Part shown: one piece after another, positions 1,963 to 44,468 of the stretch | How the letters are laid out: each line of letters begins with the position of its first letter | Numbering within the stretch: the stretch's first letter is position 1 | Assembly: GCA_014871385.1 (NCBI GenBank) | Contig: CM026426.1 | Span: forward strand, 64,461,877 to 64,525,876 | Reading direction: 5' to 3' | DNA length: 64,000 bases | Source of the DNA: Ceratodon purpureus | Taxonomy: Eukaryota; Streptophyta; Bryopsida; Pseudoditrichales; Ditrichaceae | The notes under the pieces: model-generated | Seen by the model: the letters and a program-made list of their open reading frames with translations, nothing else | Told to the model about the DNA's origin: nothing | Database searches by the model: none | Made by a program: the position numbers and the translations under genes

Positions 1963-1984
1963 TAGGGTGTTGGCAAGCTACGCC
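1963..1984 (+). repeat. Left terminal inverted repeat of the giant element
   Basis: The terminus reads TA, then GGGTGTTGGCAAGCTAC, then GCC. It is inverted at 44447-44468 with two mismatches. It begins exactly where homology to the uninterrupted repeat at 54160 ends. Confidence 0.8.
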
Positions 1985-2839
1985 TATGGAAAAAGTATGT
2001 CAGAAAAGTACATTTTCCGAAGTACTCTTCATAAAGTACATCTTTTCTCTAGGAAATAGACATAGTTCTGAGGTGTTTATTATGAAATTAGCTTCGTCCA
2101 CTGCTATGCATTGTTGTTTAAAGTCAAAGATCAAGAGAAAATGTTTGGGCGCCTCTGTATGTAGTACTTTTCAAAAAAATTAAAGTATGTCAGATTGTAG
2201 AAATCTTGACAAAGTACTTATTTTCTTGCAACTGGAGTTTTGTATTGCTCTGATTTTCTTGCAGGGAGTGTGGCTTGTATGTCGCTATAGATCTCTATAA
2301 AGAAAGTAACCAAAAAATGAAAATCCTGGGAAAAATTTGATTAGGTGGCGGAAAAAATTATGCAGTCCAAAAGTCCACGAAAAAATGGGCGCAAAGTTGA
2401 TTCTTCTATGCAGGCGGCGTTCCTAACGTCTGCTCTTTGTTGGCTAACGACTGGATCTTCTATAAATTCTGTTTTCTGTAGACTTTAGGATCTCATGCGG
2501 CCGCCACTAAGAGTACTATGCGGGTTACTTTCTAGAAACAGAAGTACTCAGAGTACTTTATAGCGTAATCTCCATTGTCCAATATTGATGCCTTTCTATC
2601 TCAGCCGTACACATCATGATAAGATCCGAATATATTGGATCTGGGCTGTTTGAGTTCCGGTGAATTTTCTGTTCATCCGCTCCTATGGATGACGTCTCTT
2701 CTTTTCTGTTCATCTAGTTGTGGGTCGTCTTGCATGCGCACAGGCGCATGCAAGGATTTGCAACGTCGTTTTTCTTCTTCCTTGAGTGTTCTAGAGAGTG
2801 TGAGCTGCGGCGCTGCCGTTTCAAGGGTTTGCAATACCA
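1985..2839. other. Left subterminal region rich in AGTAC motifs
   Basis: No convincing gene. AGTAC or AGTACT occurs repeatedly (near 2006, 2021, 2036, 2163, 2212, 2511, 2542 and 2552). The same motif is dense at 40.95-41.6 kb and near 44.4 kb at the other end of the giant element. Subterminal motif clusters of this kind often bind a transposase; that role is inferred here. Confidence 0.5.
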
Positions 2840-3247
2840 ATGTCAGGAGAAGGTTGTCCCAACAACCCAGCATTAGTTCAGTCTCTAATAACGTCGTACT
2901 ATGTAGTTAGAGAACCTCCTCAACTTGTCCAACAACGAATTACTTACTACTTCCTTGCTTGCGATGGTGTCGATGAGGGTATTCAGAGTGTAGGTCAAGA
3001 GTTCACCGCCCCTTCATGCTATAGTCCAGATGATGATGTGTCAAGCACCTCGCACATTTCAGGTACACCAACTTCACGGCTTGGAGATATTGCATGGTAC
3101 CTCCATAGCGGAAACCAAGCAGTTCATGCCCATGAGCGTCTTGTCCGGAATTCGAAGACTCTGTTTGGATCAGAGGTCACTGAAGACGCACTGCCTCCTG
3201 AGGACTTCACCGCATACCCATCCACGACTCCTTCCCGTACGTGCTTG
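2840..3247 (+). other. Possible 5' exon, unknown product
   Basis: An open frame of about 136 codons begins at an ATG (MSGEGCPNNP) and runs to a good splice donor (TTG then GTGAGT) at 3248. It contains no domain I recognise. It lies directly upstream of the transposase-like exon at 3480 on the same strand and could be its first exon. However, joining it to the acceptor at 3478 would put the next exon in the wrong frame, so the link is unproven. Confidence 0.35.
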
Positions 3248-3479
3248 GTGAGTTTCATTCTCTTCATCATTCCGGTTCATTTGCTTGAAGTTCTCACTCC
3301 AGTTTCGATTCCTAGTTTTAGCTGCTGTAGACAACATGTTCCACATGTTGACAAATTTGTTTGCTCGTAGGTTTTCGAGATGGGTCTTTGCAGACTCTAT
3401 TTTCACAGACTGTCTCCTCCTTCTCTAACCGCGTAGTCTCTCCTTGTTGGTGTTCGCGGCTGTATTGGGGATTTGTAGG

Positions 3480-4271
3480 ATGGGCGACAAATTCCGAACA
3501 CAGAGGTCGAGCATGCGACGGCCTGGTCCTGCGGAGAGGGCGGCGTCAATGGAATCTGCAGAGGCTGCACGGTTAGAGAAAGCAGAGCGCAATCGTGTGT
3601 ACCAGCAACGCCATCAAGGGAAGTCTTGAGTGCGTTCGGAAGGAGGGGAGAAGGAGATATCGACGAAGGACACAACAAGTGATGAAGTCGATGAGATTTC
3701 GAATAGGGATGCATCCAGAGTTGCTCAGAAGATTGTCACAACCATATCTCATGAGCTGAATGCTCTCCCTGGACCTCAATGTCGACAAATTGTGCTTGAG
3801 AAGGTTCTGCGCCATAATCAAGTTTGGCCTCTCTTACCCTACTACTACCCTCGTCATTTAGAGGCAAAAAGTATCCATTATTTGATTCAAAGTTTTAGAT
3901 CTGAGTTACAGTCCCTATCTATACCATTTTCAAACAATATGTTAGTTAGAAAAGGGGCCTTGTTAGATGCTGCTGTGAGTGGCAGTGTAGGTGGTGTTAG
4001 GGCCCTTGCACGTGTTTTGGGAACTAAACCAGAAAATATTCAAGCCGCCCTGGAAAGGAGAGAAGAATACAAAGAGGGAGCCCCTCGGTTTGTACCACTA
4101 TGCAGGCAGAAACGAGCAGACACTACGACCACGTACACGGTTGAGGAAGTGAAGACTTGGTGGCACAGTCACACTAGAGTTAGCCCGAATAGGAAGGACG
4201 TGGTCAACAAAGGCGGTGGTGTGAAAAGGAGAGCAGAGACACATGCTAAGCACTACTTGACTGTCACGTTG
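3480..4271 (+). pseudogene. Transposase-like gene of the giant element, N-terminal exon
   Basis: The frame opens at ATG 3480 (MGDKFRTQRSS) after an acceptor-like TTTGTAG. It is open to a phase-0 donor at 4272 except for one stop, TGA at 3627-3629. It encodes a helical, basic N-terminal region ending with RADTTTTYTVEEVKTWW, HTRVSPNRKDV and AKHYLTVTL. The order fits the N-terminal part of a transposase-like family whose catalytic part follows at 5259. The intron 4272-5258 contains a MITE and an AGTAC-rich stretch. The domain boundary and family assignment come from memory of similar proteins. Confidence 0.6.
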
Positions 4272-4307
4272 GTATGGTTTCTGTACATTTCAATTATCCA
4301 TTCATTA

Positions 4308-4697
4308 GGTGTAATTTGGGGTCTCCAAAAGGCCGTGTAAGCGGCACGTGAGAGAAAAAAACAGGCGCTGCCCGCGCACTTTACCTCGTGGCTCCGGCTG
4401 TGCCACCGTGGTGCCAGCAACCGCTACGGGGGCTCGAACCAATGACCTCCGAGCGAGGCGTGTGGAGGGCACATCTACAGTGTCGGGCTGACACAACCTG
4501 CTCACTTAGGACCAAAGCCCGAGCCAAGGCATTCATGTCTCAACTAATATTCCGAGGACCTTTGTTGTGAGTGCGCCACGCAGTTCTGTGCGGGCAGCAA
4601 CTCTGGCATCCGCTGCCAGCGGCAGAGGTGCCCAAAGTAGGGAGTTCACCTAGAAAGGGCAGGCTTACACGGCCTTTTGGAGACCCCAAATTACACC
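4308..4697. mobile_element. MITE with 35-bp perfect terminal inverted repeats
   Basis: The ends (4308-4342 and 4663-4697) are perfect 35-bp inverted repeats beginning GGTGTAATTTGGGGTCTCC. They are flanked on both sides by TA (4306-4307, 4698-4699), which suggests a TA duplication as in mariner-like or Stowaway-type elements. The interior has no long ORF. On the minus strand it contains GGTTCGAGCCC, close to a tRNA B-box. It sits in an intron of the transposase-like gene. Confidence 0.8.
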
Positions 4698-4699
4698 TA

Positions 4700-5258
4700 A
4701 TGGTTGCACCGCATATATGCTAAGTATTGCCATGTACTATGAATCCCCATCGTTGGAGTACTTTGACACTGCTAGTAGTTTAACTACTAGTAAATAAGTA
4801 CTTCAAATACTGTGGATTGCCTTGTGCAGTACTCTTCTGATTTCGAATTGAGATAGTATGTTACTTGATGACTTGAATTTGTACTCGTAGTAGAGTGTGT
4901 ATTAGGTTTATTTGAAGTGTACTTGGTTAAGTACAACTTCGTAGGGGGGTTTATGTGCACTGTAATTCTGGTACTGCATGGTACAATTTACATGAATGTA
5001 TTAGAGTACACTATGTACTTGAACCATTTTGTGTTGTTGCCATAATACGTTTTTCTCAAGCGATGTACTTCCATTTAGTACTCATCGTAGAAGAGTACTT
5101 CGAAGAAGTATGTCGACAACTAATGTAGTACTTACAGAGAGTCGGCGTACAGACAATTTGTACTTTGAATCGGTACTTCCATTCGAAAATGTATTTCGAG
5201 GGTCACCTTCATGAGTACCGAAGTACTACTAATACTTCATATCGGTGGGTTGTTGCAG
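4700..5258 (+). other. Rest of the transposase intron, AGTAC-rich
   Basis: No gene. About fifteen AGTAC or GTACT motifs lie between 4735 and 5225, often as AAGTACTTC or GAGTACT. The intron ends at an acceptor GTTGTTGCAG, after which the reading frame resumes in phase. Confidence 0.5.
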
Positions 5259-6264
5259 ACGACCTTCTATCTGCAGTTCAAACAGGCTCACCCGGAGTGC
5301 AAGATAGGCCAACGAAGCTTCGAGAATCTCAAGCCCTGGTATGTGAAACCTCTAAGGGACCGTAATGTTTGTTGCTGTATCTACCACGTAGAAATGGATC
5401 TCATGAGGGTAGGTCTGAACACTCTACGGGAGGAGAAGAGGGGACTGCATGCCCAAAAGGGTTGCTCTTGTGCGCGTGAAGTTTGTTCTACTGTCGTGGA
5501 GGGTGCATCGGAGGAGAGTGTAGGCTGTAATGCTCATCACGGTGTTTACAAGCAAATCACTCTACTTGTGGGTAGCGTGCCTTTGTCCAAAACCGGAGTT
5601 GGCTGAATGGCACAGATTGAAATGTTTAATGGGTGAATGTAAGGACTGTGGGGTAGGACGGCTCCCAGTTTGCCCACATGAGTTGTCTTCGGAGAGTGAG
5701 CCGAAGCTACGTTGGAAGCATTTCTCTTACGTTCAGATTGGGGTGGATCTAGAGACAGGAAAGCCAAAGAAACGTTTGCAGGAGGTGAACTAGGAAACAA
5801 GTCCAGTACAATTCATCGACTACATGAAGCCGAAGGTGGAGGCTTTCATAAAGCACAACTTTATTGCGAATTGGCAAGATAATGAGTGCAAGGAAATGAT
5901 GGAAGGTTTGCCTGAGGGAGTTTTAGTTTCCCACATTGATTTTGCTGAGAATTATGAATTCCAGATTCAAAATGAAGTCCAAAGCATGTACTATATGTCT
6001 GAGTATGTTTCCTTGTTGGTCCACATCACTTTGCAGAGAGTCCGTGATGTGAGTGGTGATTTGATCACCATAAAACATACACACTACTATATTTCGGATG
6101 ACAAGAAACATGAGAGTTTGTTTGTTCAGCATTGTCTCATGCTTCACTGGAGGTGGTTGTGTGCTAACGGGGAAAAACCAAGGGAGCATTGGGTATTCTC
6201 TGATGGCTGTGCAGGTCAGTTTAAAGGGGCTACTGCAATGTATTTTGTTGCAAGGTATCCCAGT
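5259..6264 (+). pseudogene. Transposase-like gene, catalytic core (decayed)
   Basis: The exon starts at 5259 with TTFYLQFKQAHPECKIG, followed by RSFENLKPWYVKPLRDRN and a Cys/His-rich segment (CCCIYHVE, CSCAREVC, then after the shift CLCPKPE, CLMGECKDCGVG) that probably binds zinc. The RNase H-like core follows, with HIDFAENYEF (first Asp) and HWVFSDGCAGQFKGA (second Asp). Breaks are an apparent 1-nt loss near 5578, where the frame moves from 5211-5606 to 5530-5793, and an in-frame TAG at 5791. The exon is cut at codon boundary 6264 by the hAT insertion, and the frame resumes at 17775. The DDE/D reading rests on the motifs; I cannot name the superfamily. Confidence 0.7.
6257..6264. repeat. 8-bp target-site duplication of the hAT element, left copy
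   Basis: ATCCCAGT directly precedes CAGGGTTGT at 6265 and directly follows ACAACCCTG at 17767-17774. Eight base pairs is the standard hAT duplication length. Removing the element and one copy restores the disrupted transposase frame. Confidence 0.95.
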
Positions 6265-6640: not shown

Positions 6641-6679
<39 letters not shown>

Positions 6680-12800: not shown

Positions 12801-12955
12801 CGCAAAGTAAATCCCTGAAAAAAAAAAATCAACAACTTCCCCCCCCGCCCCAATGAAGACTTCCCACATAAGCAGTTCCAAGCAAGGCGTGTTTTCACAC
12901 GTCAGGACAAGGAGCCGCAGTGGGAAGGAGTGTGGGGGGCGAGAGCTTCTCCCCA

Positions 12956-12965: not shown

Positions 12966-12967
12966 TC

Positions 12968-17774: not shown

Positions 17775-18495
17775 CTCACTGGAGGCTGCTCTATGATCTC
17801 GAATTTTTTCGCAACTGGACATGGGAAAGGTACTTGTTATTCAATACTTTTGTGCTACTTTGAGTGGAGTTCCCGTACTTTTGTATTTTTGTTAGTGGAG
17901 CGTAAGTACTTATGTACTTCTTGAGTGGTGACAATGTACTTATGTACTTTCCGAATGAAGCAGATTCTTTATTACGGTATGGGGATGATGTGTTATGCAG
18001 TCAATATGGATTTACAGAACAGTATTGGATGCAATTGTAGGTGAATGGGACGGTGCAGGAGCCGTAGTGAAGCGTGCTTTACGCATCGAACAGATTTGAA
18101 ACCCTGAGAGGCAGCTGCAAAACGCACTCCAATGCGTTGAGTTCCTATAGCAAGGCTTCTCTAATAGAGCGCCTTCTTCACATGCAGGGACCAGCAGTAG
18201 AGATATTCACCGTACCTTTTGGCACGTAGGTGAGAACGAGATCAGTAGGGAGTCATCGATGGCGTGTCACACTATTGCAGGCTCAAGATCTCTCTATTCC
18301 ATTATGGGAAATTCTACCAGCAATAAGACATGTTTGCTGGTTAGACCTCTGTCATGTTTCTGTGCATCGTGTATAGATAAAGACTGGGAGAATTGTGAGC
18401 AAACGGCCCATGTCCCTAGGTGGAGGGCAGTACAACTTCAGCCCAAAGCGCCGTCAGAGGAACTGGAGGCTCTAGATGATGATCCTACCGAGCAG
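17775..18495 (+). pseudogene. Transposase-like gene, continuation after the hAT insertion
   Basis: The frame broken at 6264 resumes here in phase: LTGGCSMISNFFATGHGKG, then an intron at 17830-18040 (donor GTACTT, acceptor TTGTAG), then EWDGAGAVVKRALRIEQ. The acidic residues in EWDGAG are candidates for the third catalytic position. TGA at 18097 and TAG at 18148 break the frame. After them follow RTFWHVGENEISRES, CHTIAGSRSLYSIMG and the Cys-containing CFCASC, to a donor at 18496. The fit across the hAT site confirms a single gene. The intron is again rich in GTACTT motifs. Confidence 0.75.
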
Positions 18496-18628
18496 GTATT
18501 GTTCTGTAATAGCATTAAGGTTGAATTTTTTATTTTTATTTTTAAATATCATTCAGATTTTTTTAATTTGGATCTTACCTGCACACCTGAAGAATAATAT
18601 GAGGTTCTGAATGTACTGATTTATCCAG

Positions 18629-19042
18629 GTTCACCGAGGAGAGAGGCTAGACGATGTCCTGGACATAGGTGACAATTTTGTGGTTCCAGCCGAACAACCA
18701 AATGAAGAGGGTGTCGGCTTCTATATCTTGCAATGCCAACGACGAAAATATAAACTACAGGCTCCTATTGTGTGTCCTTGGGGTGCCGAATTTGAAGCAG
18801 GGGGTTTTGTCATTGAAGGCACTTATTACAAAAAGTCTGGTCGGGGTGAATACACTTACACATATCTTGAAAAGTCAGTGGTAGCTCATGTTTCATCCCA
18901 CCTGGTTTTAGCCTGTAAGTTCAGAATGAAACTCGCCCCATACTGCCTGAAAGGTGGGGATCCAGTTTATAAGATCTCCTCAGAAGTAGTCGATGTTGTG
19001 AGACAAGCTTTATCACAGATGTGGGAAAATGACGATGCGTAA
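18629..19042 (+). pseudogene. Transposase-like gene, last exon
   Basis: The exon follows acceptor TTTATCCAG in phase 0 and is open for 138 codons to TAA 19040-19042. It begins VHRGERLDDVLDIGDNFVV and contains FYILQCQRRKYKL and IEGTYYKKSGRGEY. It is probably the C-terminal DNA-binding or accessory domain. No stop interrupts it. Confidence 0.65.
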
Positions 19043-20936: not shown

Positions 20937-21556
20937 TGTTAAAGGGATTTTTTGCCTTTTTACCTAGGAGCAGTAACAGTAAACAGTTAGGAGCAGTAAA
21001 ACAGTTAGGAGCAGTAAAACAGTTAGTTACTGCGGATTTCCTAGTTACTGCGTTTTGGATGAAGTTTTGACAGTCGGATGAAAAATCGACTTGGATGAAA
21101 AACGGACAGCGGATGACGACGGCTAGGGTTTGGGGGGGGTTAGTGGGAAGGGGGTGGCGGCTCTCACTCTCTCTCACTCTCTTGCAGATTTTCAGAGCTA
21201 TGGAGGTTAGGAGGGGGACTTAGAGGTTAGGATGAGGAGGATGGTGTGGTAGAGCAGATCAGAATCTGCTAGGTACAGGACTGATTGTATGGAACAGACT
21301 TTAATGCTGAAAGTAGACTCTTTTGAGTACATTGAAGTATGTGTAATGATTACTAGGGATTTGTGGGAAATGGGGTGTTGGTTAGTTGCATTGAGAGCAG
21401 TTTGAATGGAGCAGGAACTGGGTTTGTTGAGTACAGCCTAGGAGCAGGATCTAGAGGTAGAAATAACTAGGTGGGTACTGAAATTTCTTGGGTTCTCCTT
21501 TAGATTTGGACAGTAGACTTAGCTTTTGAAGGGTGAAGCTAAATCACCCTTTAACA
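20937..21556 (+). repeat. 5' LTR of the gypsy element
   Basis: 620 bp, with perfect 10-bp terminal inverted repeats TGTTAAAGGG and CCCTTTAACA. It differs from the 3' LTR at position 3, near base 43 (AAACAG/AAATAG), at GGATGACG/GGAGGACG and at GGCGG/GGTGG. Confidence 0.97.
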
Positions 21557-21574
21557 TTGGCGACCATGCATTAA
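21557..21574 (+). other. Putative primer-binding site
   Basis: TTGGCGACCATGCATTAA follows the LTR end. TGGCGACC would pair with a tRNA 3' end GGTCGCCA. The primer tRNA is not identified. Confidence 0.5.
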
Positions 21575-21654
21575 GAACGGATCAGGTGGCTCTTGCTGCG
21601 AATCTGTACAGTCCAGGACAGTTCTGGAACAGGTAGACAGGCACAGTGGCCAAG

Positions 21655-21835
21655 GGAGAGATTACAGTCACAGATTCGCAGTTACAGGATTACAGTCACT
21701 GCTTTACAGTCACAGATTCGCAGTCACAGGATTACAGTCACTGCTTTACAGTCACAGAAGTACAGTCACAGGTTCAGAGTCACAGATTTACAGTTACAAG
21801 ATTACAGTTACAGGGTTACAGTAGTAGCAGTACCA
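21655..21835 (+). repeat. Short tandem repeats in the gypsy leader
   Basis: Repeated TTACAGTCACAG, GATTCGCAG and similar units (about 12-13 bp) give a periodic but probably untranslated frame. Confidence 0.8.
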
Positions 21836-25549: not shown

Positions 25550-25618
25550 AGGGAACCTGAACCAAGAAAGGCCAGAACGAAGGAGGACTGGCAGGAGGAA
25601 GAGAGAATCGGGAATTCG

Positions 25619-28600
25619 ATGCTAGAAACCTTGAAGGAAATCGAGCTTCAAGAAGAGCAGGAGAAGGCAGAAGCAGAGAAACTCAGGGCGACTTTAAAAA
25701 CAGCAGAGAAGGAAGGAGATGGTGAAGTGCTGGATAATGAGTGGGCAGGATTCCCAGACTCAGATACACTAGCCTACAGCACCAAGACCGTCAAGCAGGA
25801 ATTGGGCGCAGAAGGGGAGACCAGTACAGAGAACAACCAGGAGCAGCACTATGCAACTGTAGTTGGAAGAAAAATACTGGACAGTCCCATCACAGTCTCA
25901 CTAGGACAGCTGCTGAAGATGGCTCCTAATTTGACAGAATTTGTGAAGGCCCACGTATTCCCAGAAATGATAGCAGACCAGCCAAGTCAGCCAGAGCCAG
26001 CACCAAGCAAGAAGCCAACAACCAGTCAACCAGGTAAGACCGATTTAATAGGCAGTCTAGCTATTGATGTTGACAGAGAACTGCCGGTGTTAACTGTGCA
26101 GATAGGCAATGGGACTCTGGAGAATGTCCTACTGGATGGAGGATCAGGTGCGAACTTGATAATTGAGGAGGAGCGAAAAAGACTGGGCCTCAAGGACTCC
26201 CAGCCTGCTCCTTTCAGATTAAGAATGGCGGACCAGACAGTCGTTGACCCGGTGGGGATGATTCGCAATGTGAAAATTCACATCCACGGTATTCCTTACC
26301 TTATTACCTTGACTGTTATTAAAAATAAAGAAGTTAACGAAGCCTATAGTATGCTGCTAGGCAGACCATGGTTGATTGATGCTAAGGTAAATCACGATTG
26401 GGGTAACAATCTGGTTACCATCAGAGGTAATGGTACTGTAAAAACCATCTCAGTCAGTCAGAGGAAGGGGCCCAGGCCTAAGTTACCTGAAGTCCTAGTC
26501 TGCTATAATTTTACTGAAGGACTGACAGATGAGGAGGAAGCCTTGTGGTTAGCTAGTGAGCAGGACTTGCTGGCCGTTGGGACAGTCACCCTGCCTCGAA
26601 TGGAGCAGAACAAGGACCAGGACAACAGAAAGGACCAGGACGACATCAAGAGCCCGACAAAGAACCAGGACCAGGACCAGGGACAAGAGGGGGGATCACA
26701 GCGAGCCTACCCAGACCATTTCTACAACTTTGAGGAGGGCGACATTGAAGTGGATGAGACACCAGCCCGGGAGAAAGTGAAGAAATTGAAGATAGCATCC
26801 TGGACCTTACCAGAGTCGGAGCAGTTGAGAAAAATTAACCTTGGAACAGAGGAGGAGCCCCAGTATCTGAAGATTAATGCAGCCATTAGTCCAGAACAGG
26901 CTATTGAAGCAGAGGCTCTGTTCAGGGAATTCAAGGATGTATTTGCCTGGACCTATAAGGACCTGAAGGGTATCCCACCCTCAATTGCACAGCACAGGAT
27001 TGAGTTGGAGAAGGATATCCCACCATCCCATCAGGCCAGATATCGCATGAATCCAAATTATGCCAGTATTGTGAAGCAGGACTTGGATAAACTGCTTCAG
27101 GCTGGATTCATTACACCAGTAGAGGATGCTACCTGGTTATCCCCTATTGTTATTGTTCCTAAGAAAAATGGGAAGTTGAGAATTTGTATTGATTTTCGCA
27201 AATTGAATGCTGCCACTAAAAAGGACCCGTATCCATTGCCATTTACTGAGGAAGTGTTGGATTCTGTGGCAGGACATGAGATGTATTCGTTTCTGGATGG
27301 GTACTCCGGGTACCACCAGATTCAGATAGCACCAGAGGACCGGCACAAGACTGCTTTTGTAACAGACTGGGGAGCATTTGTGTGGATAGTCATGCCTTTT
27401 GGGCTGAAAAACGCACCTCCCACATACCAGAGGGCAGTAAACAAAGCCTTTCGAGATTTTATTGGTGATTTTATGAAATTGTTTTTAGATGATTTCAGTG
27501 TGTACAGTGACATTATTAGCCATCTGGTCAAGCTGAGAAAGTGTTTTGAGAAATGCCGTGAGTATGGAATAAGTTTAAATCCTGAGAAATGTTTACTACT
27601 GGTCTTCTCTGGTATTATACTGGGCCACATTGTGTCTAAGGAAGGGAAATTTCCTGATCCTAAGAAAATTGAAGCAGTAGAGAATATGCCTAGACCAGAA
27701 AAGCCAGGAGATGTTCAGGTTTTTAACGGTTTTGCCCAGTTTAACAGGTGCTACATTAAGTCGTATGCACAAATCATGGAGCCAATCACCAGGCTCATGA
27801 GGAAGGCCGAGGAGTTCATCTGGTCAGACCAGTGTGAGCAGGCATGGAAGAAAATCAAGGAGCAGTACCAGAATGCGCCAATTCTCATTGCACCAAGATG
27901 GGACCTGGAGTTCCATGTGCATACAGATGCTTCGAATATAGCAGTAGGAGTGATGCTGGCCCAGAATCCAACAGGGAAGTGTGACCAGCCCATTTCTTAT
28001 GCTAGTAGACTGTTGAATTCTGCTGAGAGGAACTACAGTACTACTGAAAGGGAAGCTTTGGCAATGGTTTATGCTCTAAACAAGTATAGGCATTATCTGC
28101 TGGGAAATAAATTTGTTTTCTATGTTGACCATATGGCACTGGTGTATCTGGTCAATAAGCCGCAGGTGTCAGGACGGATAGCAAGGTGGCTACTGTTGTT
28201 TCAAGAATACGATTTCACAGTGGTGTATAAGCCAGGAAAGAATCATGGTGTGGCAGATGCGATGTCAAGACTGCCCAACGGAGAACCAGCAACTGGTGTC
28301 GAGGACCAGACCAAGGATGCAAGTTTGTTTTATATTAAACCAGAATGGTTAGAGGATGTACGTTCTTACCTGAAATCTGGTGTTGTACGACAGGACTTGT
28401 CTAAGGAGGAGCAGAGGAAGCTGATTCTGAAGTCACTGCCCTATACACTGGTCCAGGGAGTTCTGCACAAGCGAGGACATGATCTGGTAGTCAGGAGGGT
28501 ACTAGACCCAGTGCAGGCAGAGGTGGTGATGAAGGAGATGCACAATGGAGTAGCAGGTGGTCATTTTTCACAAGATATCACCAGCAGGAAGATACTGGAC

Positions 28601-30616
28601 GCCGGATACTGGTGGCCAGCGATACATCGGGATGTTGCAGAATACTGCAAGGCGTGTGACAGATGCCAGAGAGTGGGAGGCATGGCAAATACTGGTTTAG
28701 CTACCTTAGTGGCCAGTATGCCAGCAGAACCATTTATGAAATGGGGATTGGACTTTATCGGGCCCATTAAACCAACAGCATCCAGAACAGGGAACAGGTA
28801 CATACTGGTGGCTACAGATTATGCTACCAAGTGGGTGGAGGCAAGGGCGCTCAAAACCAACTCAGCAGCAGTTACTGCTAAGTTTTTGTATGAGCAGATC
28901 CTTTCAAGATACGGGTGTCCCTTGACACTTGTAAGTGACCAGGGTTCTCATTTTATAAATGAGGCTATAGAACACCTGGTGGAGCATTTTCTGCTCCAGC
29001 ATCGTATATCAACAACCTATTACCCCCAGGGTAATGGCCAGGCTGAATCAACAAACAAGGTGATTGGTCACCTACTGAGCAAGCTGGTCAATGATAGGCG
29101 AACAGATTGGGATGAGCATCTTCATATTGTACTGCTCTCCTACAGGACTGCTTACAAGGTGACTACAGGTTACACACCATTTCAACTGGTCTATGGCTTA
29201 CATCCGTTAATGCCAACAGAGTACATAATACCAACCAGGAAGACCAGCTCAGAAATTGATTATACACCAACCAGGGTGTTGGCAGCCAGGATTGCGGATT
29301 TGGAGCATATGGACACTTCAAGACTAGAGGCCCAGGAAGCAGTAGGGGCCAAGCAGTGGAACAGGGCACTTTGGAGCCAGCAACACTACAAACGAAAGGA
29401 TTTTCAAGTAGGCGATTATGTGCTCTGGTATCCCAAGGGCCATAAGGAGCATGTGGGGAAATTCAAAAGTCGGTGGTTTGGACCTTATAGGGTCCAGTAC
29501 AGGCTCCCCAACAACACTGCTCTGCTGGTCCAGGTAAAAAATTTTGAACCTGATCCAGTATTGGTAAACATCAATAAGTTAAAACCATACAAATTTTATG
29601 AAAAAGAAAACAGGGTAGTGGAAACCAGGACACCAGGACATTTGACTAGAGGACTGGTCAACGAGCAAAAGGGGGATAGTGTCCAGTCAGGGTTAGAAAA
29701 TACAGGGATAAAAAGTGAAAAAAACTGTGAAGAAGGAGGCAGTGAAGCAGTAAAACAGCAGAAGGATAAAGAAAACAGTGAGAGAAAAATGAAAAATCAA
29801 AAGAAAAATAAAAATGAGCAAGAGGAAGGACAGAAAGCAGGGGAAGGAGACATGGAGGAGATGATTGAAAAAAATAAAGGGAATGAAAAAAATAAAGAAG
29901 TAGTAAAAAAAGAAAAAACAAAAGAAAAAAAAGAGTTAGTGATAGTGGGATGTGGAATGATAGAAGTCATAAGGGGGAGAGAAAAAGGAATGGGACAGTT
30001 TAGAGGGCGGCCCATTAAGAAGGAGGACGGACAGAGTTCATCCGAACAGGATACTTCATCCATCCGACGGGAGGGAAGACTGGATGAAGTCCGAACGGGA
30101 CTGGAGGAGGACCTTGGACCGGGTCAGGGTATTAGGGGTTTAGAGCCGCAGCCAAGGAGAAGCGCCGACATTGCATTCTGGAGTTGCCAACAAAATAGGG
30201 CGAGCAGCGTGATTTGGAGAGAGGAAGAGGCGAGAGAAGGCCAAGGTGAGGAAGTTGAGAGAGAACTTAGAGCAGATCATAGCACAGGGATAGAGAACAG
30301 TGAGGCAGATACTTTCGGAGAAGCTAGGGAGAGAGAGTGGCGCAGTTTGGGGCAGGTAGGTGACTTCACTCACACGAGAGGACCAGCGCAGTTCAACCCG
30401 GAAGAGAGGGCGGCGCAGTTTCGGAAAGAAGAACAGCAGCAGCAGCGGCTCCAAGAGGAGCAGTGGCGCCGACACACCAAGGAGGAGCATCAGCAGCAGC
30501 GGCTCCAAGAGGAGCAGCGGCGCCGACACACCAAGGAGGAGCATCAACAGCAGCGGCTTCAAGAGGAGCAGCGGCGCCAACCCACCAACGAGGAGCACCA
30601 GCAGCAGCGGCTTTAA
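25619..30616 (+). CDS. pol: pol polyprotein of the gypsy element (PR-RT-RNaseH-IN)
   Basis: 1665 codons without a stop. The aspartic protease has [11 protein letters not shown] (about residue 170). Reverse transcriptase spans about 490-700, with FLDD as the catalytic motif (about 622). RNase H starts near HTDAS (about 768). Integrase has an HHCC zinc finger (about 971-1017) and a D-D-35-E triad in GLDFIGP, SDQGSHF and GQAEST (about 1043, 1105, 1141). A GPY-type C-terminal module (WFGPYRV) is near 1286. The last 330 residues are Lys/Glu-rich with Gln-rich repeats (QQQRLQEEQ). All catalytic motifs are intact, so the enzyme could be active if translated. No upstream ATG of its own is needed if the gag TAA is read through. 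Confidence 0.96.
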
Positions 30617-33600
30617 GAGAAGCGCGACAGCTCCGAGAGGAGCAGCAGCGCCAGTTCCAACTCAAGCAGCAACAGCTCAGGGAGGAGCAACAAAGCCAGC
30701 TTCAAGAGAAGCAGCGGCGACTTTGGGAGGAACAACAGTGCGAGTTTCAAGAGAAACAGCGGCTTCTACAGAAGGAGCACCAGCACCGAATCAAGGAGAA
30801 GTACCGGCAGCCTGATCGGGGAACCCTTCACTGCAGCGGGTTGGAAACCCTAAGGGGCGGCGACAGACAGGAAGAAGAAGGACACCGAGGCAGGGAAGAC
30901 GAGGATCAACAAGAGGCTGTATAGTTCAGAAGCAGTGGAAGAGAGATTCGGCTCATAGAGGAAGAACAAGGGCAGCAACATCAGGGCCAGCAAAGACATT
31001 CCACTCAGGTATTTTCCACGACAATTGAGTTTTGGCGCACATTGCAGATTGAGCACAGGAAGAGCAGGAAAGGTCATACTCCGAATGAGGGAACTATAGA
31101 GCCAAGGGGACTGGTCGGATCGGTGGAAAGGGAAAATCAGGTCAGAGAAGGAAGGGGAAACAGAGTGAAAGCAGAAGGAGTAGAGGATCACTTCGGGACT
31201 CAAGAACCGCGACTGACTTTCCAAGATTGGGCCAGGGAGGAGAATAGGGAAGGAGAAAAAACAGTAGGAGGGACAACCAGAATACAGGGAGGAACGATGG
31301 CGACGGAAGGAACCACAGGGCAGAGGGAAGGAAAGGAGCCAGCCCAGAAGCAGGGACAGTCTAAGAAAGGGACCCTGCACCAGTACATGAAGGGACCAGA
31401 GACAGCAGGGCAGGTCGAAGAGATGGAGACACAGGAGGGAGAGGAGGCTCCGCCACAGCCAACTCAAGCTACCTCCGAAGGGGACCGAAGGCCAGCACCA
31501 GTCTTGGAGCCAGAGCTGAAGAAAGCAGGAGCAGGAACCCGAAGAAAACAGACGGAGGCCATGGCCAGAGCTCCTAAGCAAATCATGGTAACCAGGAAGA
31601 AGAAGAGGGGAATGAAGCTTACCTTTCTTCCCCTAGAACACTGGAAAACTTGGAGAGATCTCATGGACGATGTCTGGGGTGAAAAGGTAAGCCTCGGGAA
31701 TTTCTATGAGTATACATGGCCAACCCCTAGGACAGAGTTAGTTGCAGATTTTATAGAGGGTTTCCAGTACATAAAAGGGGAGAAACCGGACAATACCACC
31801 CCGATCAGAGCCTCGGTGAGAGGAATTCCAGTGGAAATCACCGCATGGACTATACAGCAGGCATTAGGGCTAGAAGGGAGCAAGATCGCACCAAGTCCCA
31901 AGGCTAACGAAGAATTGGACACCCGACACATGAAGCAGTTTGGTCTCACCGGAGCAGATCACACTTCTGATGGGACCAGGATCAAGGGGTTCGTTGAACC
32001 ATATTAAGACAGAGTCAAGGCACTGGTGGAGATCATGTGCGTAAAGAAGAAGTCATTCTATGCTAGCAACGAACTGCTGGAAAACATATACCAGGCCGTG
32101 AGGAAGGGGGACCATAACTGGGCCCCATTGATTTTGTCCAGCCTACGCCGAATGCTAATTCGGGTCCACACCAGCGAGACCAGGGAGATCAAAGGGGGCG
32201 AACTTATAGATGCTCTGCTGAAAAACTGGTTCCCAGATGAGGAGCAGTATGTCGACCCGGAGCCAGGCCAGGAGGATGAGGAGGACGAGGACCAGGATAG
32301 CGAGGGTCAGCCTGATATAACACCTATCAGGCCGGAGGCAGACCTTCCACCAGATGGAATTAGCGAGGAGGGGACCACACTACGACGACTGACCAGGGGC
32401 AGAAAGGACCAGGAGAAGAAAGCCGAGGAGCAGCATTCTCCACCCCCACAGCAGGAACGAGGCACCAGGAAGCGCAAGAGGAAGGTTCAGTCCTCTCCCT
32501 CTACACAAAAAGATCAGGGGGCCACCTTCAAAAGATTGAGGAGGTAGAACAAGCAGCCAAGGTATAGGGACAGCACTACAGGATCTCTGGATTCAGTGGA
32601 GGCAGCAGAAGTTGAAAGAGGCGCTATCACCTCCAAGACTAGGCGAACCCCAAAAGCCAAGGCTAAGGAGCACCAGAAGGGAGGGATAGAGCAGCCACCA
32701 GCTGAGACACCCAGGGAGGCGTCCAGGACCTTGTTGACATTGAGAACCTCTCAGCATACCGGAGAGACCAGTAACCTAGAACCACCAGTATTGGAACAAC
32801 AAGGGAGTTTAGCACCGATGGCCGATCTTCAGGACCAGCAGCGGCCAGAGGAGGTAGTACACCAGACCGATGCTTTGCCACCAAGAAATCTGAGGGGGGC
32901 GTTTCAGTCGACAACCACTAGGAAGACAGAGGTGGCAGGTGGACTGGAGCAATTGTTGGACCAGATGCGTGTCTGGGTTGGGGAGATAGGGCGAATTAAG
33001 GAACTACAGGACCAGCAGGAGCAGCAGAATCCTACTTACGATGAGTTGGTTGCTAGGAACCAGGAGTTAGAAGGGAGGACGAACCAGCTAGCTACCCAAC
33101 TCTATGCTGCGGGCCAGGAGTTGACGGAGCTTAAGAAGACATGGGCAGAGACCAGGAGGAAGCTCACAGTTTTCACGGAAGAACAGCAACAGGAGCGAGC
33201 TAGGTGGGCAGCACAAGGTGTGGAGCTCGAAGGAAGGAGGCAGCAGCGACTGGACCTGGAATTGAAGACGAATGCAAGGCTTCAAGACTACGATCGACTG
33301 GCCCTTGAGAATCAACAGCTTCGGCTACAGTTAGAGGTGGCAGAAAGATCTGCCACTCCGGCTAGTCCTGGTCTAGCCGGTCACTTGCTAACCACTTCGA
33401 AGAAGCAGGTCTGCGAGGAATTGAAGACTTATACGGAGGACCAGGAGAGGCTTAATCGGTACTTAGTTCGTTTTGCAGATGCTTACCCTTCATTTGTGTA
33501 TTGGTCCGATGATGAGCAGGTGGCCACAGAGGAGGTAGCGACACCGGAACAGGCCGTAGGGGCAGAAGAGGCGAGTCTTTTGGCTCGGACAGCTGGGGTG

Positions 33601-33771
33601 GTTGAAGGGATACCCAGGGAATGCACACCAGTCTTGGCGGTTGGATCGGCCTCGGTAGCAGGACCACCCGCAACAACAGGGCCAGTAGCAAACAGGACAC
33701 TGCCCGGACCAGCACCGACACCAGGAATACCAGAAGGAGCAGCTACCGAGACTGCACCAGCTAGTGGCTAG
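30463..33771 (+). pseudogene. Third ORF (ORF3) of the gypsy element, downstream of pol
   Basis: A frame -1 to pol is open from about 30463, overlapping pol by 154 nt. It continues to TAG 33769-33771 with stops only at 30922, 32005 and 32545. Its start repeats the Gln/Arg-rich coiled coil of the pol tail (LREEQQRQFQLKQQQLREE), so pol and ORF3 may once have been continuous or may use frameshifting. The middle (LPLEHWKTWRDLMDDVW, YTWPTPRTELVADFIEGF, ASVRGIPVEITAWTIQQAL) resembles the plant transposon-protein domain found in other LTR elements; this is from memory. The C-terminal part is a long coiled coil. The position matches env-like ORFs, but I see no signal peptide or membrane segment. Confidence 0.65.
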
Positions 33772-33894
33772 AGTAGAACTAGGGGTTATACTGGTAGGAC
33801 CAGTAGTAGACTCTATTTAAATTTTTATTTCCTTTTTTATTTTTGGCTAACTACATAAAACTAGAAGCCAGAGCATCCGAGGGCAGATGCAGAC

Positions 33895-33907
33895 TAAAAG
33901 GGGGATA
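33895..33907 (+). other. Polypurine tract
   Basis: TAAAAGGGGGATA lies directly before the 3' LTR, where plus-strand priming occurs in LTR elements. Confidence 0.75.
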
Positions 33908-33908
33908 A

Positions 33909-34528
33909 TGATAAAGGGATTTTTTGCCTTTTTACCTAGGAGCAGTAACAGTAAATAGTTAGGAGCAGTAAAACAGTTAGGAGCAGTAAAACAGTTAGTT
34001 ACTGCGGATTTCCTAGTTACTGCGTTTTGGATGAAGTTTTGACAGTCGGATGAAAAATCGACTTGGATGAAAAACGGACAGCGGAGGACGACGGCTAGGG
34101 TTTGGGGGGGGTTAGTGGGAAGGGGGTGGTGGCTCTCACTCTCTCTCACTCTCTTGCAGATTTTCAGAGCTATGGAGGTTAGGAGGGGGACTTAGAGGTT
34201 AGGATGAGGAGGATGGTGTGGTAGAGCAGATCAGAATCTGCTAGGTACAGGACTGATTGTATGGAACAGACTTTAATGCTGAAAGTAGACTCTTTTGAGT
34301 ACATTGAAGTATGTGTAATGATTACTAGGGATTTGTGGGAAATGGGGTGTTGGTTAGTTGCATTGAGAGCAGTTTGAATGGAGCAGGAACTGGGTTTGTT
34401 GAGTACAGCCTAGGAGCAGGATCTAGAGGTAGAAATAACTAGGTGGGTACTGAAATTTCTTGGGTTCTCCTTTAGATTTGGACAGTAGACTTAGCTTTTG
34501 AAGGGTGAAGCTAAATCACCCTTTAACA
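33909..34528 (+). repeat. 3' LTR of the gypsy element
   Basis: 620 bp, beginning TGATAAAGGG and ending CCCTTTAACA, followed by the TCCAT duplication at 34529-34533. Confidence 0.97.
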
Positions 34529-36516: not shown

Positions 36517-36571
36517 TGAACACCCGTCTCTCTGCCACGGACTCTACACAACCTCCGCATGTGGTGACGAT

Positions 36572-37672: not shown

Positions 37673-40600
37673 TTACTTGCTCCTGCTCCTTCTTAGCAAC
37701 CTGGTTGACTTCTCTACTGCATCCTTCTTAGGTATGTCACGTTGTGACTCTAATAATGACTGGTTTCCCTGGTCCCGGCACTTACTACTCCCACAGGTGT
37801 ATCTAAAGCTGGGTATATCCCGATCATCGGACTTGAAATCCTCGCCATAGACCTGCCACAAACGCCCCCCCCCCCCCCCCGGGTTAGTAATAGACTCTTA
37901 TGTCATTTAGCTTAGAAATTGAGACAAATAAATCCATCTTTTTGAAGGAAGAAAGTCAGCGCCTACTAATCGGTTTAGGTTCCTACCCATGTCAACTCTT
38001 CTCTTGGGTAGATGTCTCGATTGGCAAAGAATGCCACATGGTAGATACGCTCGTCTCCGGAGTCCAATTGCGTAGGCATGTCCATGACGTTAGCTCCCTC
38101 ACACCTGAAACAACGGCAGTCACAATTTCCGTAGTAAGGTTCTGTCCTTGACCTAGGCACTGTATTTGACTTTGCATAAAACAAATAGAGCTAGGACCGT
38201 CCGTGCCTGTGATTTAAAAACCTTGCAACATTGCCATAGTGAGTGGCATCGATACAGAGAGAGTTGTTGTCATTGGCCATTACTTCAGACCGCCAACAAG
38301 CATCCAGTTGGAGAGTGTAGATTTGACGGACACCAAGTAGCTTGTGTATGAGGTGGTTCCGCTCAATTAGCTCACCATTAGTCACAATCTCCCCGGCGAG
38401 CTCAAATAGAAACTTACCTGCCTGGATGTGCTCAAGTGTCCGGACACCCCAGCCGTGAGACGAAGTCATAAAAATCTGCGAGTGATAAACTACGTGTTAA
38501 AAAAGGTCAATATTAAAAATGGTCATCAATAACGAAAATGAGATCTCTCTAAAATAAAATAAGGCTTACCTGTACTCTAACCGTCATGCCATGTTGTATA
38601 ACGCGGTTCCCACACTTTAAGTGGCATGTACAGAAGGAGTTACATTCTGTAACAATGGTCCTTGGTTGGTAACCACGGCAAACAGCCTCGTCACCGCTGC
38701 TACTGTCTTCTGCAGGGAGATTTGCACAGAAACACCCGGTCCCCTCATTACAATATTCCAAGGGAAGTTTATCATCTAAATCCCTTATGATGTCAGCCCG
38801 AAGGAGGCCAGCTGTATTATATGCAAAATCCCCCGATTGAAGGGCGCACACGCAACCTCGGTTCCCAGAAGTCAGGCAATCCGTACCACAACCTTTACAA
38901 CTTGCTTTTGGTCTGAAACTTTTTCTCACAGTCCTCCACAAGTTGCCACCGTTAGGCTCTTCAACTAGTACCATACTGTCTTTGGTGTACCCAAAATCTG
39001 GTGGATGAATATGGGATCCAATTGGACTGACCACTTGTACAGGATACCGCTCCAAACCATACGAAATATCTTCAACCAATACAGTACCCTGTTTTTGACA
39101 AGGCAAGTGAAATCAGCAATGCAAATGGGAGGCTTGTGTGCGACCCCAGATCTTTTTTCCAAGTAATGGAATACATACAAAAATGTATTCTATAATAGTA
39201 CGATGCCATAGACCCAAAGGAGCCTACGTATATACCTCTCACGATACAAAATAGAGTGTGCAATGTTTTTTTGCCACACTCTAAACTGCCTACACAATCC
39301 TATACGACCCTACATAATCCTAGAACAGCAGTTAGTCAGAGGACGCCAACACAATATTCACCGGTTTCAACTTCTTTCCACTAGGGTTGCCTCCGGGACT
39401 TAGAACTTCGGGGCAGCTTCGACTAGTAGGGGTCTCTTTGTGCTTCCTTTTACTTGATTTCTTCTGCCCACCCTTCTCCACCGCACTATCCTTCTTCTGC
39501 TTCCGCGTCTTGGACTTCCGCTGGGTTGCCATATCTTCACCTTCTCCTCTGTGTGGGTTATCTAAAGCATCTAAGGATTTTCTGCTAGCCCGTGTCCTCT
39601 GAGCTGGCCCTTGCTCCATATCAACTCCTCTGACCATGTTCTGACCTTCCAGCTCTTCTTGGAGCCTCCGTCCCTCCTCCGACTTCCTCTTCCCCCTCAA
39701 TTGCTTAACCTCAGAGGGGACTTCGACTGCTGTGGCCCCCACGTCTTCCTCTGATCCGTTTGTTTTTGACATTCCTTCAAGCCTTCCAGACTTATGCTGA
39801 CTCTCAGGAGTCAGTGGCTTCCCTTGTATGGGGCAGTCCTTAACCTGGTCGGCAGTTGTCTCCGTGGCCATGTTCGACTGGACAAGCGCTGACCATGGCT
39901 TGCCCCATATCTCCATGCTTTCCTGTTCGAGCTCCACCTCCTGGCCCTCATCTAATCCCTCCTCTATGCCCGGTAGCTTCACTACCTCACCGCCCCCTCC
40001 TGCCTTCCCCTTGCTCTACCCTTCTCCTTCCACTTCGCTATCTAACTCCATATAACTCTCCCTCTTTTCTCCTACCGGCTCTCTAACTCCCTCACATCCC
40101 GCCCCCCCTACTCCTTCTACAACTGATGTGGGCACAGTCACACGTGGTATTTCCACGACCCCTACGTCCTGAGATATCTCCCTCTGAATGGGTTTAATAG
40201 TTAAACCCCCTTCCCTAAACCTCTTCTCCACCTCTAGCTTTCCAGTGTTCTCCTCCTTACCTTCTTCTTCTACTTCCTCGTCTGTTTTGCGACATTGGCC
40301 ACTGTTCCCCTTGTCTCCTTCATCCTCAGTGTCCTTGTTGCTCTCGCTACCAGTGCCACTAGCTGTAGTCCCGGAGCTTGATTTAAAATCGGGAGCATTA
40401 TCTGCAACAAATCCACCGTCGCAATTCATCAATCATCGTCGCCGAGCAGGGTCATGAATTGTCCAAAATATAAACAGTCACTTCGAACGACCTATGTACA
40501 ATCAAGACTATATACTACCGGAAATCAAACAGAGAGGTCGATAAACATACCTTCTTCTTCAGAGTCTTCCTCGTCCGAGGATTCTATCAACTCGGGCTCC

Positions 40601-40926
40601 CACACCCTTGACTTCCCTCGCAAATCTTCCACAAGACACTCGTAAACCTTCTCGGGATGTAGCTGCACGTGGGGCGAACGCTTCCTTCCATCTGCTCTCC
40701 CAATAGATGTGTCAGACCTTGTGGCAGCGGTTTTCGCCTTTTGTGGACTGTCCACCACAGTCTTCAGATTTTCCTCCCCTCTGATATGCATAAGGCTGCT
40801 AGTGAATGTTTCACCAGCAGTTGAGTCCCGTAACCGAGTTGAGCAAACTGCTTGACTTTGCTCACCGAAACTCCCAAGCCCGTGAGAAAGGGTAGACACA
40901 GGCTTCAATGACGATTCTGCAATAAT
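37673..40926 (-). pseudogene. SUVR-type SET-domain histone methyltransferase inside the giant element
   Basis: Exons, reading on -: 40926-40551 and 40401-39362 (disordered, acidic/basic), 39088-38570 (pre-SET), 38475-38207 and 38104-37987 (SET), 37852-37673 (post-SET). Pre-SET has CKGCGTDC and TECNSFCTCHLKCGNRV; SET has GWGVRTLEHIQAGKF, YTLQLDA, NVARFLNHR joined to CEGANV, and REELTW; post-SET has YGEDF and CGSSKC. The order matches plant SUVR proteins, which act on H3K9. Defects: TAG at 40016 in the second exon, Val for Asp in the TW-D-YG motif, and Tyr for the first Cys of the post-SET CxC. One SET intron appears to need a GC donor. No WIYLD domain was found. It is probably element cargo and no longer functional. 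Confidence 0.75.
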
Positions 40927-41690: not shown

Positions 41691-43691
41691 GATATTAAGT
41701 TCTAATATGTACTCACCTGTGTTGGGACATCGACGACGTGCTTGTTCAGCTCGTTCCGAAAGTAAACGCCCCACCTCCTCGTCAAACATACTCATCTGGG
41801 CAGCTACATCTTCATCGACAACACTCCTTGGACCTCCCCACCCAAAGCTACGATGCCAGTCTGGATCTACTAGTTTGTCACTACAGTTCGCCGCGGCACA
41901 CTTGAAACCACTTTCGTAAGTAACCTTTGCGCAGAAAGGGTGATACATGTGCTTACAAGATGCAATCACAATGTCACTCTTGGGGAAGTTAAAACCACAA
42001 AGAGCACACTTAGTGATTTTTAGAAACCTGCGTTCGGGAGAGTGGTCCTCTCCAAAGGCACTGTCAAGGTACACGAGGGGAACTGGGTTGAGACTGGCAG
42101 TGTCTCTTCCATACTTAATGCGCTCAATTTCGACCTTCACCCCTTTGCACATCCGGATCTTGTGCTCTCTTAGGCGCCGACACTCTGCAGCTCCTAAGCC
42201 CTTCTCCATCGCCTCGGACTCCTTCCTCGCTTTTGGTCCTCCAGGATCTCAGCAAGCACATTCCACTTTCCTTCATTTCCTGGATGCTCCACGTCACTGC
42301 TCTGAAGTTGAGCCAAGTTAGCCTCGTAGGATTCCACCATCAATAGCGCTAGTTGCTTGTCTTGCGCTGCTGATTCCTTAGCCTTCAGCGCCACCTCCTC
42401 GTCCATCTTCAATCCCTCAATTTCCATCAAGAGAATTGTATGCATTGTCTGGAAGTACTCTAGTTTGGACATCGATGCTATAGTCTGTTCTTCTACCTTC
42501 ACCGAGTGGTTGGCCAGAACTCCCTTCGTTCCCACCTTCCAAGTCGTATGCGTACTGTTCGGTGGCGGAACAGATCTCCTCTACAACAACATAGGCAACA
42601 GACAATAACATATAGTTAACTTCAAACAACGCTTTCAGATCTATTGCACCTAGAGTTTAAGTGAACGCAACGATACTATACCTTAAGATAACAAGAAGTA
42701 TATCACAAAACAATACAGTGCACTAGGATTGGACTTACAATGCTAAGTCTAAAAGCATTGACCACGTACGACAGGAAACCCTTCAATTTTTTCATTATAA
42801 ATTCTATATAGTGTATTCTTTACTCTAACAGTCTACAAACAAGCATTTCAGAATAACAGTAATCAAATGACACAAACAACAAACATTTCAGAATATCACT
42901 AATCTAATTACATAAACAACTCTAATCAAATAAAACATACAATTAAACTTGGTCGAGTTAGGATACTTACCTTTGTCGGCGTTGCGTCTTCCACCCCAAC
43001 ACCCGGCTCCAGCTTGACCGCGGCATTGACCTTCAAGCTCCTCCAAGTGCGCTTTGTCACCCTGGCCCCCGTGTTGATAGCGAATTGCAGCTTAGAAAGG
43101 TCCTGCTCATACTTTCTTCGCTGGGAGTTGTTTGTCTCTTGACCATACAACGCCCAATTCACTGAATTCTGTTGGTACTCCAACACGACACCTACTGCAA
43201 ACTGCTTCGTCACGCATCGAGGAATCTCCTCTGGTCTGTGCTGGTACACAATTGGATGCAGGTACCTGATGCGGTTGACGATCTCCCGAATCTTGCAATC
43301 GGACCAAAAGTATCCGCCGCGACCCTTAACTCCCTTCGCTCTAAAACCTAACTCCTGCATCGTCTTGTCGGAGATGTCCTTATCTTTCCGACATCAATGC
43401 GGGTTGATAGAGTTAGGGCTATACTCTAGATTGTATCAGTCGCGGAAGTCCTCCCATGTTAACAAATCCGGGGGGGACTTCAGAATCGCTATCAACTCCT
43501 GAAGATCTTTGATGTTCAAGAAGCGCTCCTCCTCCTTCACAGAAACCCCAACAACCTCACTACCCCCAGACTTAGCTTTCCCGACCTTCATTCCCAACCC
43601 AGATCCCACATTCCCTTTGGAATTAATCCGTCCATCCCGAGAACTAGTTCTCACTCCGTCTCCCCCCCCCGGACTTGGACCTCTTCGACAT
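41691..43691 (-). pseudogene. Coiled-coil/RING-like gene of the giant element
   Basis: It starts at ATG 43691 (MSKRSKSGGG), where a run of nine C on + shifts the frame; the next frame (DGVRTSSRDGRINSK) continues to 43437. Later exons encode KGRGGYFWSDCKIREIVNRI (about 43390-42970), a coiled coil (about 42535-42230), and after another 1-nt shift near 42235 the finger CALCGFNF, ASCKHMYHPFC, CAAANC, WHRSFGWGG. It ends near 41691. The finger layout matches the hAT gene at 16.4 kb (SCPHMFHPMC, then F-FGL). It is probably a ubiquitin-ligase-like protein. Two shifts suggest decay; the one in the homopolymer could be a sequencing artefact. Confidence 0.55.
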
Positions 43692-43765
43692 TGCGGACAC
43701 CCTAAACAAACTGATCTGCAACGTAAACCTATTGAGCGATACTCTGAAAACAGCAAGCCAACATG

Positions 43766-43773
43766 AAACCCTA
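43766..43773 (+). promoter_or_regulatory. Telo-box upstream of the RING-like gene
   Basis: AAACCCTA lies 75 bp upstream of the minus-strand ATG at 43691. CCCTAAAC also occurs at about 43782, with further CCCTAA variants to 44060. Confidence 0.5.
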
Positions 43774-44446
43774 GACCAACACCCTAAACATATCCTAAGT
43801 ACTCGCGACAAACTGAACCCTAAGCGCAACACATACTAAACACCTTAAACCAGAAACCCTCAATCCCCATCTCCCATATGCTCAATCCCCAAAAACAATG
43901 CTATTTTCCATCACTCCAACACCGTAAGCGATATCACAATACTCGAAAACTCCAACAACAAAGTGAACCCGGTTGCTCGACACAAGTATCTCACACAACC
44001 TCATACCCTCTAACCCTCTAACTCTCTATCTTTCTATCTCACCCTAAACCTCTAACCCTCTATCTGGATTTCCGCAAGAACAAAGAATACAAATACTCCT
44101 CTCTATGCTCCGAAGCCTTAGGTATGATGGAAACGCACAACACCAACGAGACAAAACAAACACCACCGAGACCAACAAACACCAAAGAGTCTAACCGGAG
44201 AATTCCAACGAGACCAGGGGGACGTTGGATGTGCGAGACGAAGACTACCGGCAACAGTAGGTACCACCCAATCCAAGCACCTACAACCACCGGTCAATTG
44301 ATTCTTTATTGGTCGATCTGAGATTGGGCACCGGTTGCTCGCTGCGACAATATGGACGGCCCGGATTATCCAGAAAAAGTACAATACCTACAAATGGGAA
44401 AAAATGTACAAGAGAAGTACTTCTGAAATTTGCCCAAAGTGTACCC

Positions 44447-44468
44447 GGTGTAGCTTGCCAACACCCCA
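44447..44468 (-). repeat. Right terminal inverted repeat of the giant element
   Basis: GTAGCTTGCCAACACCC is the exact complement of the left-end core. The next base, 44469, begins the sequence that continues the repeat interrupted at 1962. Confidence 0.8.

Follow-up and report, generated by a model that had tools for sequence, protein, structure and literature searches.

Does a 42.5-kb interval in the genome of the moss Ceratodon purpureus represent a giant DNA transposon? The question is raised by a 64,000-nucleotide stretch, referred to here as the window (bases 64,461,877-64,525,876 of contig C6, which is 110,524,308 bp long and appears to be the V (male) sex chromosome), in which an initial annotation had described an element of that size inserted into a repeat, repeat R. 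This annotation was correct at its core but over-read the element as 'giant', and the cargo of the element is more interesting than its size. The interval is very probably a copy of a family of mobile, cut-and-paste DNA transposons of ~15 kb that carry a conserved cargo: alongside the transposase, a second unit encodes a RING-like zinc finger and a SET domain.

The insertion, its ends and its relatives in the genome

The insertion is confirmed as a DNA transposon with terminal inverted repeats (TIRs), sitting in repeat R. A 17-bp core, GGGTGTTGGCAAGCTAC, is found exactly twice in the window, in inverted orientation, and the halves of repeat R on either side join just as first described. The left flank (1321-1962) matches 53517-54160 of an uninterrupted repeat R copy at 98.9% identity, and the right flank (44467-44785) matches 54159-54477 of the same copy at 98.7%. 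By itself, the window would allow no target duplication, one of 2 bp or, if one mismatch is accepted, one of 4 bp. The paired ends of other copies rule out the first two and set a 4-bp register, so that the element runs from 1965 to 44466 between the target-site duplications (TSDs) CATA and CACA. Inverted ends therefore do mark both boundaries, although each true end lies 2 bp further in than had been proposed, and exact inverted identity extends over 17 bp rather than 22 bp. The features of the insertion are as follows.

1965..44466, + strand (oriented by the transposase gene): whole element, 42,502 bp, ~14.9 kb minus nested insertions; delimited by the terminal cores and the TSD register of 27 end pairs
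1965..1981, + strand: left TIR, 17-bp core, transposase side; core plus GCCTATG
44450..44466, - strand: right TIR, 17-bp core; core plus ACCGGGT
1961..1964, no strand: left TSD CATA, one mismatch to CACA
44467..44470, no strand: right TSD CACA
53517..54477, + strand: uninterrupted copy of repeat R (empty site), ~961 bp, with a single CACA

The genome (362.5 Mb, 151 contigs) was searched with the terminal core, allowing at most one mismatch; the resulting counts are lower bounds. The recurrence of the terminus in inverted pairs, on which the first description depended, was borne out genome-wide, with at least 77 matches, of which at least 42 are forward and 35 reverse; a control with the reversed pattern gave 0 and 1. 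Twenty-seven inverted pairs, 16 of them on C6 including that of the window, account for 54 of the 77 matches and had their ends read; the other 23 matches, which may include a pair on C2 at 20.37-20.39 Mb, were left out of the pairs. Directly outside the core, an exact 4-bp duplication is present in 19 of the 27 pairs and one with a single-base difference in four more, including the window, while a 5-bp duplication is found in none of the 27. When the comparison is shifted by 1 to 8 bases as a control, 0 or 1 of 27 match. The TSDs are loosely A/T-rich. Among the eight pairs with inexact TSDs, L011/L012 contains no element, a single end being present twice as an inverted duplication, and L035/L036 is a duplicate of the window locus. 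The ends of L011/L012 (C1:28570573 and 28643007) are identical, and the sequence immediately internal to the core (CTACTCTGAAT) differs, a hint that a second subfamily exists.

The duplicate of the window locus bears on the assembly itself. The same insertion, together with both flanks, is present a second time in inverted orientation; the window element and its flanks form one arm of an inverted duplication whose arms lie ~30 kb apart (other arm C6:64376513-64435848). The arms are 99.9-100% identical over the parts compared (window 1-1964, 44467-46466 and 53467-54198, amounting to ~4.7 kb of flank and both ends), and the element in the other arm spans 47.6 kb, ~5 kb longer than that in the window, in a comparison that covered the flanks and ends. 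Being a duplication, this second copy offers no independent support for the insertion. Misassembly is possible where a near-identical inverted copy lies so close by, in which case positions 1962 and 44469 would be unlinked in the genome. Inverted pairs of termini occur at 26 other places, however, of which 19 have exact TSDs and 14 were read over their full length, and they leave an assembly artefact as a negligible prospect.

Nested insertions and the size of the element

Sixteen of the 27 pairs span 13.8-16.3 kb; the remaining spans are 11.1, 16.9, 18.1, 19.4, 25.9, 28.1, 34.1, 42.5 (the window), 43.0, 47.6 and 72.4 kb (L011/L012). Fourteen of the 16 were fetched whole and are referred to below as full copies; they are 13,790 to 15,988 bp long and, where they align with the window copy, diverge from it by up to ~28%. 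Alignment of the window copy to them identified four nested insertions.

4303..4702, no strand: insertion resembling a miniature inverted-repeat transposable element, with ~39-bp inverted ends; not in copy C1
6265..17766, no strand: hAT element, 11.5 kb, with the 8-bp TSD ATCCCAGT at 6257-6264 and 17767-17774; empty site in copies C1 and C10_11.43
20937..34528, + strand: Ty3-type long terminal repeat (LTR) retrotransposon, 13.6 kb, with LTRs 99.4% identical and TSD TCCAT; empty site in copy C1
35150..37232, no strand: fourth insertion, ~2.1 kb, with a 3-bp overlap CAA; empty site in copy V_37.20

Its great length is not a property of the element itself: these four later insertions, ~27.6 kb in all, inflate ~14.9 kb to 42.5 kb. 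Younger elements had been recognised within the transposon before, but three rather than four, and the earlier figure of ~17 kb after subtraction falls to ~14.9 kb. A supposed third gene of the element (35839-36543) was rejected, as it falls within the fourth insertion. End pairs of similar span do exist (43.0 kb on C8 and 47.6 kb on C6, as well as 34.1, 28.1 and 25.9 kb, all measured from end positions), as might be expected of a genuine giant mobile as a single unit of 42.5 kb. Yet for each of the four insertions there is a flanking duplication of its own or a copy elsewhere whose site is empty, and on these grounds such a mobile unit was rejected; the 47.6-kb pair is the inverted duplicate of the window locus, and the predominant span is 13.8-16.3 kb. 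A giant plant transposon is accordingly hardly conceivable here.

Of the nested elements, the hAT carries both an 8-bp TSD and a hAT dimerisation domain. It contains a DUF659/hAT transposase, a protein-kinase-like frame (11223-13013, - strand), G/C-rich tandem arrays and, at 14744-17149 (+ strand), a RING-type frame interrupted by three in-frame stops. The Ty3-type element has long frames beyond pol at 30925-33768, for which no Pfam match lies above cut-off.

Copies C2_9.93 and C13_13.35, which lie on different contigs, both autosomal, are 99.7% identical over 15,145 bp and yet have different TSDs (TCAA and ATTA); the family has therefore moved recently. C6 holds 42 of the 77 listed termini on 30% of the genome. 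Over ten exon pieces, the eight V copies have 46 stops between them and the six autosomal ones 5, as would be seen if old copies persisted on the sex chromosome.

The transposase and its superfamily

The genes of the element lie in two convergent units. The left half holds the following features.

2840..3250, + strand: conserved open frame starting MSGEG, upstream of the transposase; end approximate; also in copies C2 and C4
3480..4270, + strand: transposase exon, N-terminal part; in-frame stop near 3627
5262..6256, + strand: transposase exon with D1 (IDFAENY) and D2 (SDGCAGQFK); in the window copy, frameshift near 5555 and stop near 5791
17775..17840, + strand: transposase exon resumed after the hAT insertion (SLTGG..GHGKG)
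18041..18498, + strand: transposase exon with D3 (GEWDGAG); in the window copy, stops near 18097 and 18150
18629..19030, + strand: last transposase exon, closing at a stop
20124..20483, + strand: tandem repeats of ~72 bp, placed where the convergent units face each other with their 3' ends; copies C1 and C10_11.43 have a matching, extended array

The product is a putative RNase H-fold transposase with a D-D-D triad predicted to be catalytic. In an alignment of 45 relatives D323 is invariant and D415 and D463 are present in at least 90%, and their positions fit the order of the RNase H fold in a predicted structure model. All three D motifs are found by text pattern in 13 of 15 copies, including that of the window. 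The window copy itself is dead, its genes carrying stops and frameshifts. The MSGEG frame is perhaps the first exon of the transposase or a small separate gene; its C2 version gave no relevant match in Pfam. The transposase would pair the two termini, excise the element and join it to a target cut with a 4-bp stagger, the repair of which would yield the TSD.

None of the 45 family members matched a Pfam transposase domain, the nearest being one weak MURB-like match (E 0.13), and no transposase match was found in NCBIfam (5 members searched) or among PDB sequences. Moreover, short TSDs are common to several superfamilies. These points would fit a new transposase superfamily whose resemblance to a known one, Sola, in its DDD triad, 4-bp TSD, size and moss host is coincidental. 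The checkable published features of Sola are nevertheless all present, making a new superfamily unlikely. Sola is described as having a DDD transposase, a 4-bp TSD, TIRs of at least 11 bp and a length of mostly 2-9 kb, with some members above 15 kb, and as occurring in Physcomitrella (PMC10741241, in the part drawn on here). The present family shares the DDD transposase, the TSD, the large size and the occurrence in a moss, with D323, D415 and D463 as its predicted catalytic residues, a 4-bp rather than 5-bp duplication in the pairs above, a 17-bp exact core and a length of 13.8-16.0 kb in 14 copies. Thus the first view that the element could not be assigned to any known superfamily can be narrowed; a Sola-like placement is likely, on descriptive features rather than comparison of transposase sequences. 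Amoebal Sola2 elements, as portrayed in the excerpted source (PMC3627910), likewise have 4-bp TSDs and accessory genes, but their TSD is AWWT, where that of the moss family is only loosely A/T-rich, and their accessory gene is Fanzor1 rather than RING/SET.

Other assignments were rejected. A left end resembling TAGGG suggested hAT, but the TSD is 4 bp and not 8 bp, and no hAT Pfam match was found in the outer transposase pieces or the 45 relatives. EnSpm/CACTA elements have CACTA-type termini, a TSD of 2-3 bp and Pfam transposase domains, whereas here the termini are GGGTGTTGG, the TSD is 4 bp and there is no such Pfam match. For Polinton/Maverick, no Pfam match to a protein-primed DNA polymerase B was found among the subset of open frames scanned.

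The motif AGTAC/GTACT exceeds 100 of 100 shuffles in all four of the element's own segments, with 27 occurrences in 1.6 kb at 4703-6264 (shuffle mean 4.2, maximum 9). Binding sites or an intron bias are possible reasons. As the nested hAT also shows an excess (22 against a shuffle maximum of 19), the motif does not cleanly distinguish the element. The transposase also has distant relatives (P0100 and P0108-P0110, with an OTU-like C-terminal stretch in P0110), and the family may therefore extend well beyond mosses.

The RING/SET cargo

The second unit occupies the right half, on the opposite strand to the transposase.

42929..43691, - strand: exon 1, without known domain; two stops in the window copy
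41691..42577, - strand: exon 2, RING-like zinc finger; frameshift in the window copy; Pfam run on the C2 version
40528..40920, - strand: linker exon (..SSLKP..); ends approximate; from the window frame and copies C2 and C4
39335..40432, - strand: acidic exon, ending GKKLKP; stop near 40016-40018 in the window copy
38570..39088, - strand: Pre-SET exon
38207..38475, - strand: SET exon with FLNH
37987..38104, - strand: SET exon with CEGAN and EELTW
37676..37852, - strand: SET/post-SET exon (YGEDF..CGSSKCRD)

In a translation joined from open exons, Pre-SET (E 2.4e-12) and SET (E 3.7e-18) lie above the Pfam cut-offs; the matches of the RING-like finger lie below them. Exons of both the transposase and the second unit are present in all 14 full copies, although in V_70.06 one SET exon is missing and two more are inverted. 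No stop interrupts the ten exon pieces in three autosomal copies, C2_9.93, C4_20.71 and C13_13.35.

Whether finger and SET domain belong to one protein was read from the splice sites. In copy C4 they are in phase all the way from exon 1, by way of the linker, to the acidic exon (phases 0, 1, 1). Ahead of the Pre-SET exon, a candidate donor of phase 0 is conserved in 15 of 15 copies. In C2, of which C13 is a near twin, the linker exon, outside the ten pieces, closes early; the linker reading covers C2 and C4. Weighing against a single gene, the frame reaches a conserved stop just past that donor, so that the unit may instead comprise two separate genes. The product is thus perhaps a single spliced RING/SET protein, and the link between the SET domain and the finger is put forward only as a suggestion. 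A relative of the RING unit (P0113) and one of the SET unit (P0139), of similar source, each list a longest contig of 5,844 bp and may therefore adjoin in another moss-like genome.

Selection was assessed in ten copies by the Nei-Gojobori method as the ratio of nonsynonymous to synonymous divergence (dN/dS), medians being taken after pairs with dS of 0.02 or less were dropped; the pairs are not independent. Median dN/dS is 0.18 for the transposase (43 pairs), 0.14 for the RING part (45 pairs), 0.28 for the SET part (45 pairs) and 0.38 for the acidic exon (44 pairs). Close pairs have higher values, up to 0.87, and dS reaches ~0.9. As judged from these substitution patterns, both the transposase and the RING/SET unit are shown to be under purifying selection.

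The best named relative of the SET part is Ceratodon SUVR (41% identity over 66% of the query). In a tree of 22 rows the six element SET sequences form one group (100/99) on a long branch, apart from the Ceratodon SUVR and on the SUVR side of a 100/100 split; as the tree is midpoint-rooted and long branches can be grouped falsely, an affinity with SUVR rather than SUVH is tentative. A single, ancient capture from a plant SUVR gene is the probable origin of the SET part. Like plant SUVR1/2/4, it combines Pre-SET and SET with no SRA match; it differs from them in standing next to, or being fused with, a RING-like finger, and in its separate long-branch group. The WIYLD domain (PF10440) gave no match in the C2 and C4 exon pieces up to E 5, where an unrecognised exon is possible. 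In Arabidopsis, according to the sections used of PMC4260354, the WIYLD domain of SUVR4 binds ubiquitin and aids conversion of monomethylated to trimethylated lysine 9 of histone H3 (H3K9), while SUVR2 displayed no activity. With WIYLD not found and SUVR2 inactive, methyltransferase activity of the element's SET domain cannot be assumed.

It might be supposed that in a real transposon the RING/SET block is a passively captured host gene that hitch-hikes without serving the element. Fragments of host genes are often found in plant DNA transposons, as in Pack-MULEs (PMC6431247, in the portion cited), and the block has stops in the window copy and most V copies. Passive capture is, however, rather improbable when the block is retained in every full copy across ~28% divergence, dN/dS is low at dS up to ~0.9 and the element SET sequences form a single group distinct from Ceratodon SUVR.

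As the RING-like and SET unit is conserved, the element may influence chromatin. The product would act on the element's own chromatin: the finger would serve as a ubiquitin ligase or for docking, the SET domain would methylate H3K9 or some other lysine, and host silencing would thereby be tuned or evaded. It is a tentative but credible proposal that one RING-SET protein, combining a ubiquitin ligase with a SUVR-type lysine methyltransferase, writes or rewrites the chromatin of the element's own copies and has been kept by selection since a single ancient capture in plants; a chromatin role for the product, taken as a claim in itself, is held a little more doubtfully still.

SET-carrying DNA transposons are known from oomycetes; the plant form with a RING-like partner is new. 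HarbingerS and MuDR elements of Phytophthora encode a SET histone methyltransferase (PMC12730594, as far as the extract used goes), as does, putatively, the family described here, but they belong to the Harbinger and MuDR superfamilies, have oomycete hosts, and the extract mentions no RING partner. By the same partial account, fungal TET/JBP transposons and plant Vandal elements also code for epigenetic enzymes or regulators; these are proposed to counter silencing and to remove its marks or regulate them, whereas the present element encodes a putative writer of histone methylation (PMC12730594).

An apparent giant plant transposon can thus be an element of ordinary size swollen by nesting, and the swollen copy here lies on a sex chromosome with more than its share of copies. 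Epigenetic genes encoded by transposons have mostly been proposed to remove or counter silencing, in the excerpt of PMC12730594 considered. The retention of SET with a RING-like partner raises the question of why an element would write such marks, be it for self-restraint, for hiding or for hijacking the host machinery. If the single RING-SET protein is real, it would be a transposon-owned heterochromatin writer. Why such marks would be written is open to testing, as the family in this moss offers copies with open frames next to many decayed ones.
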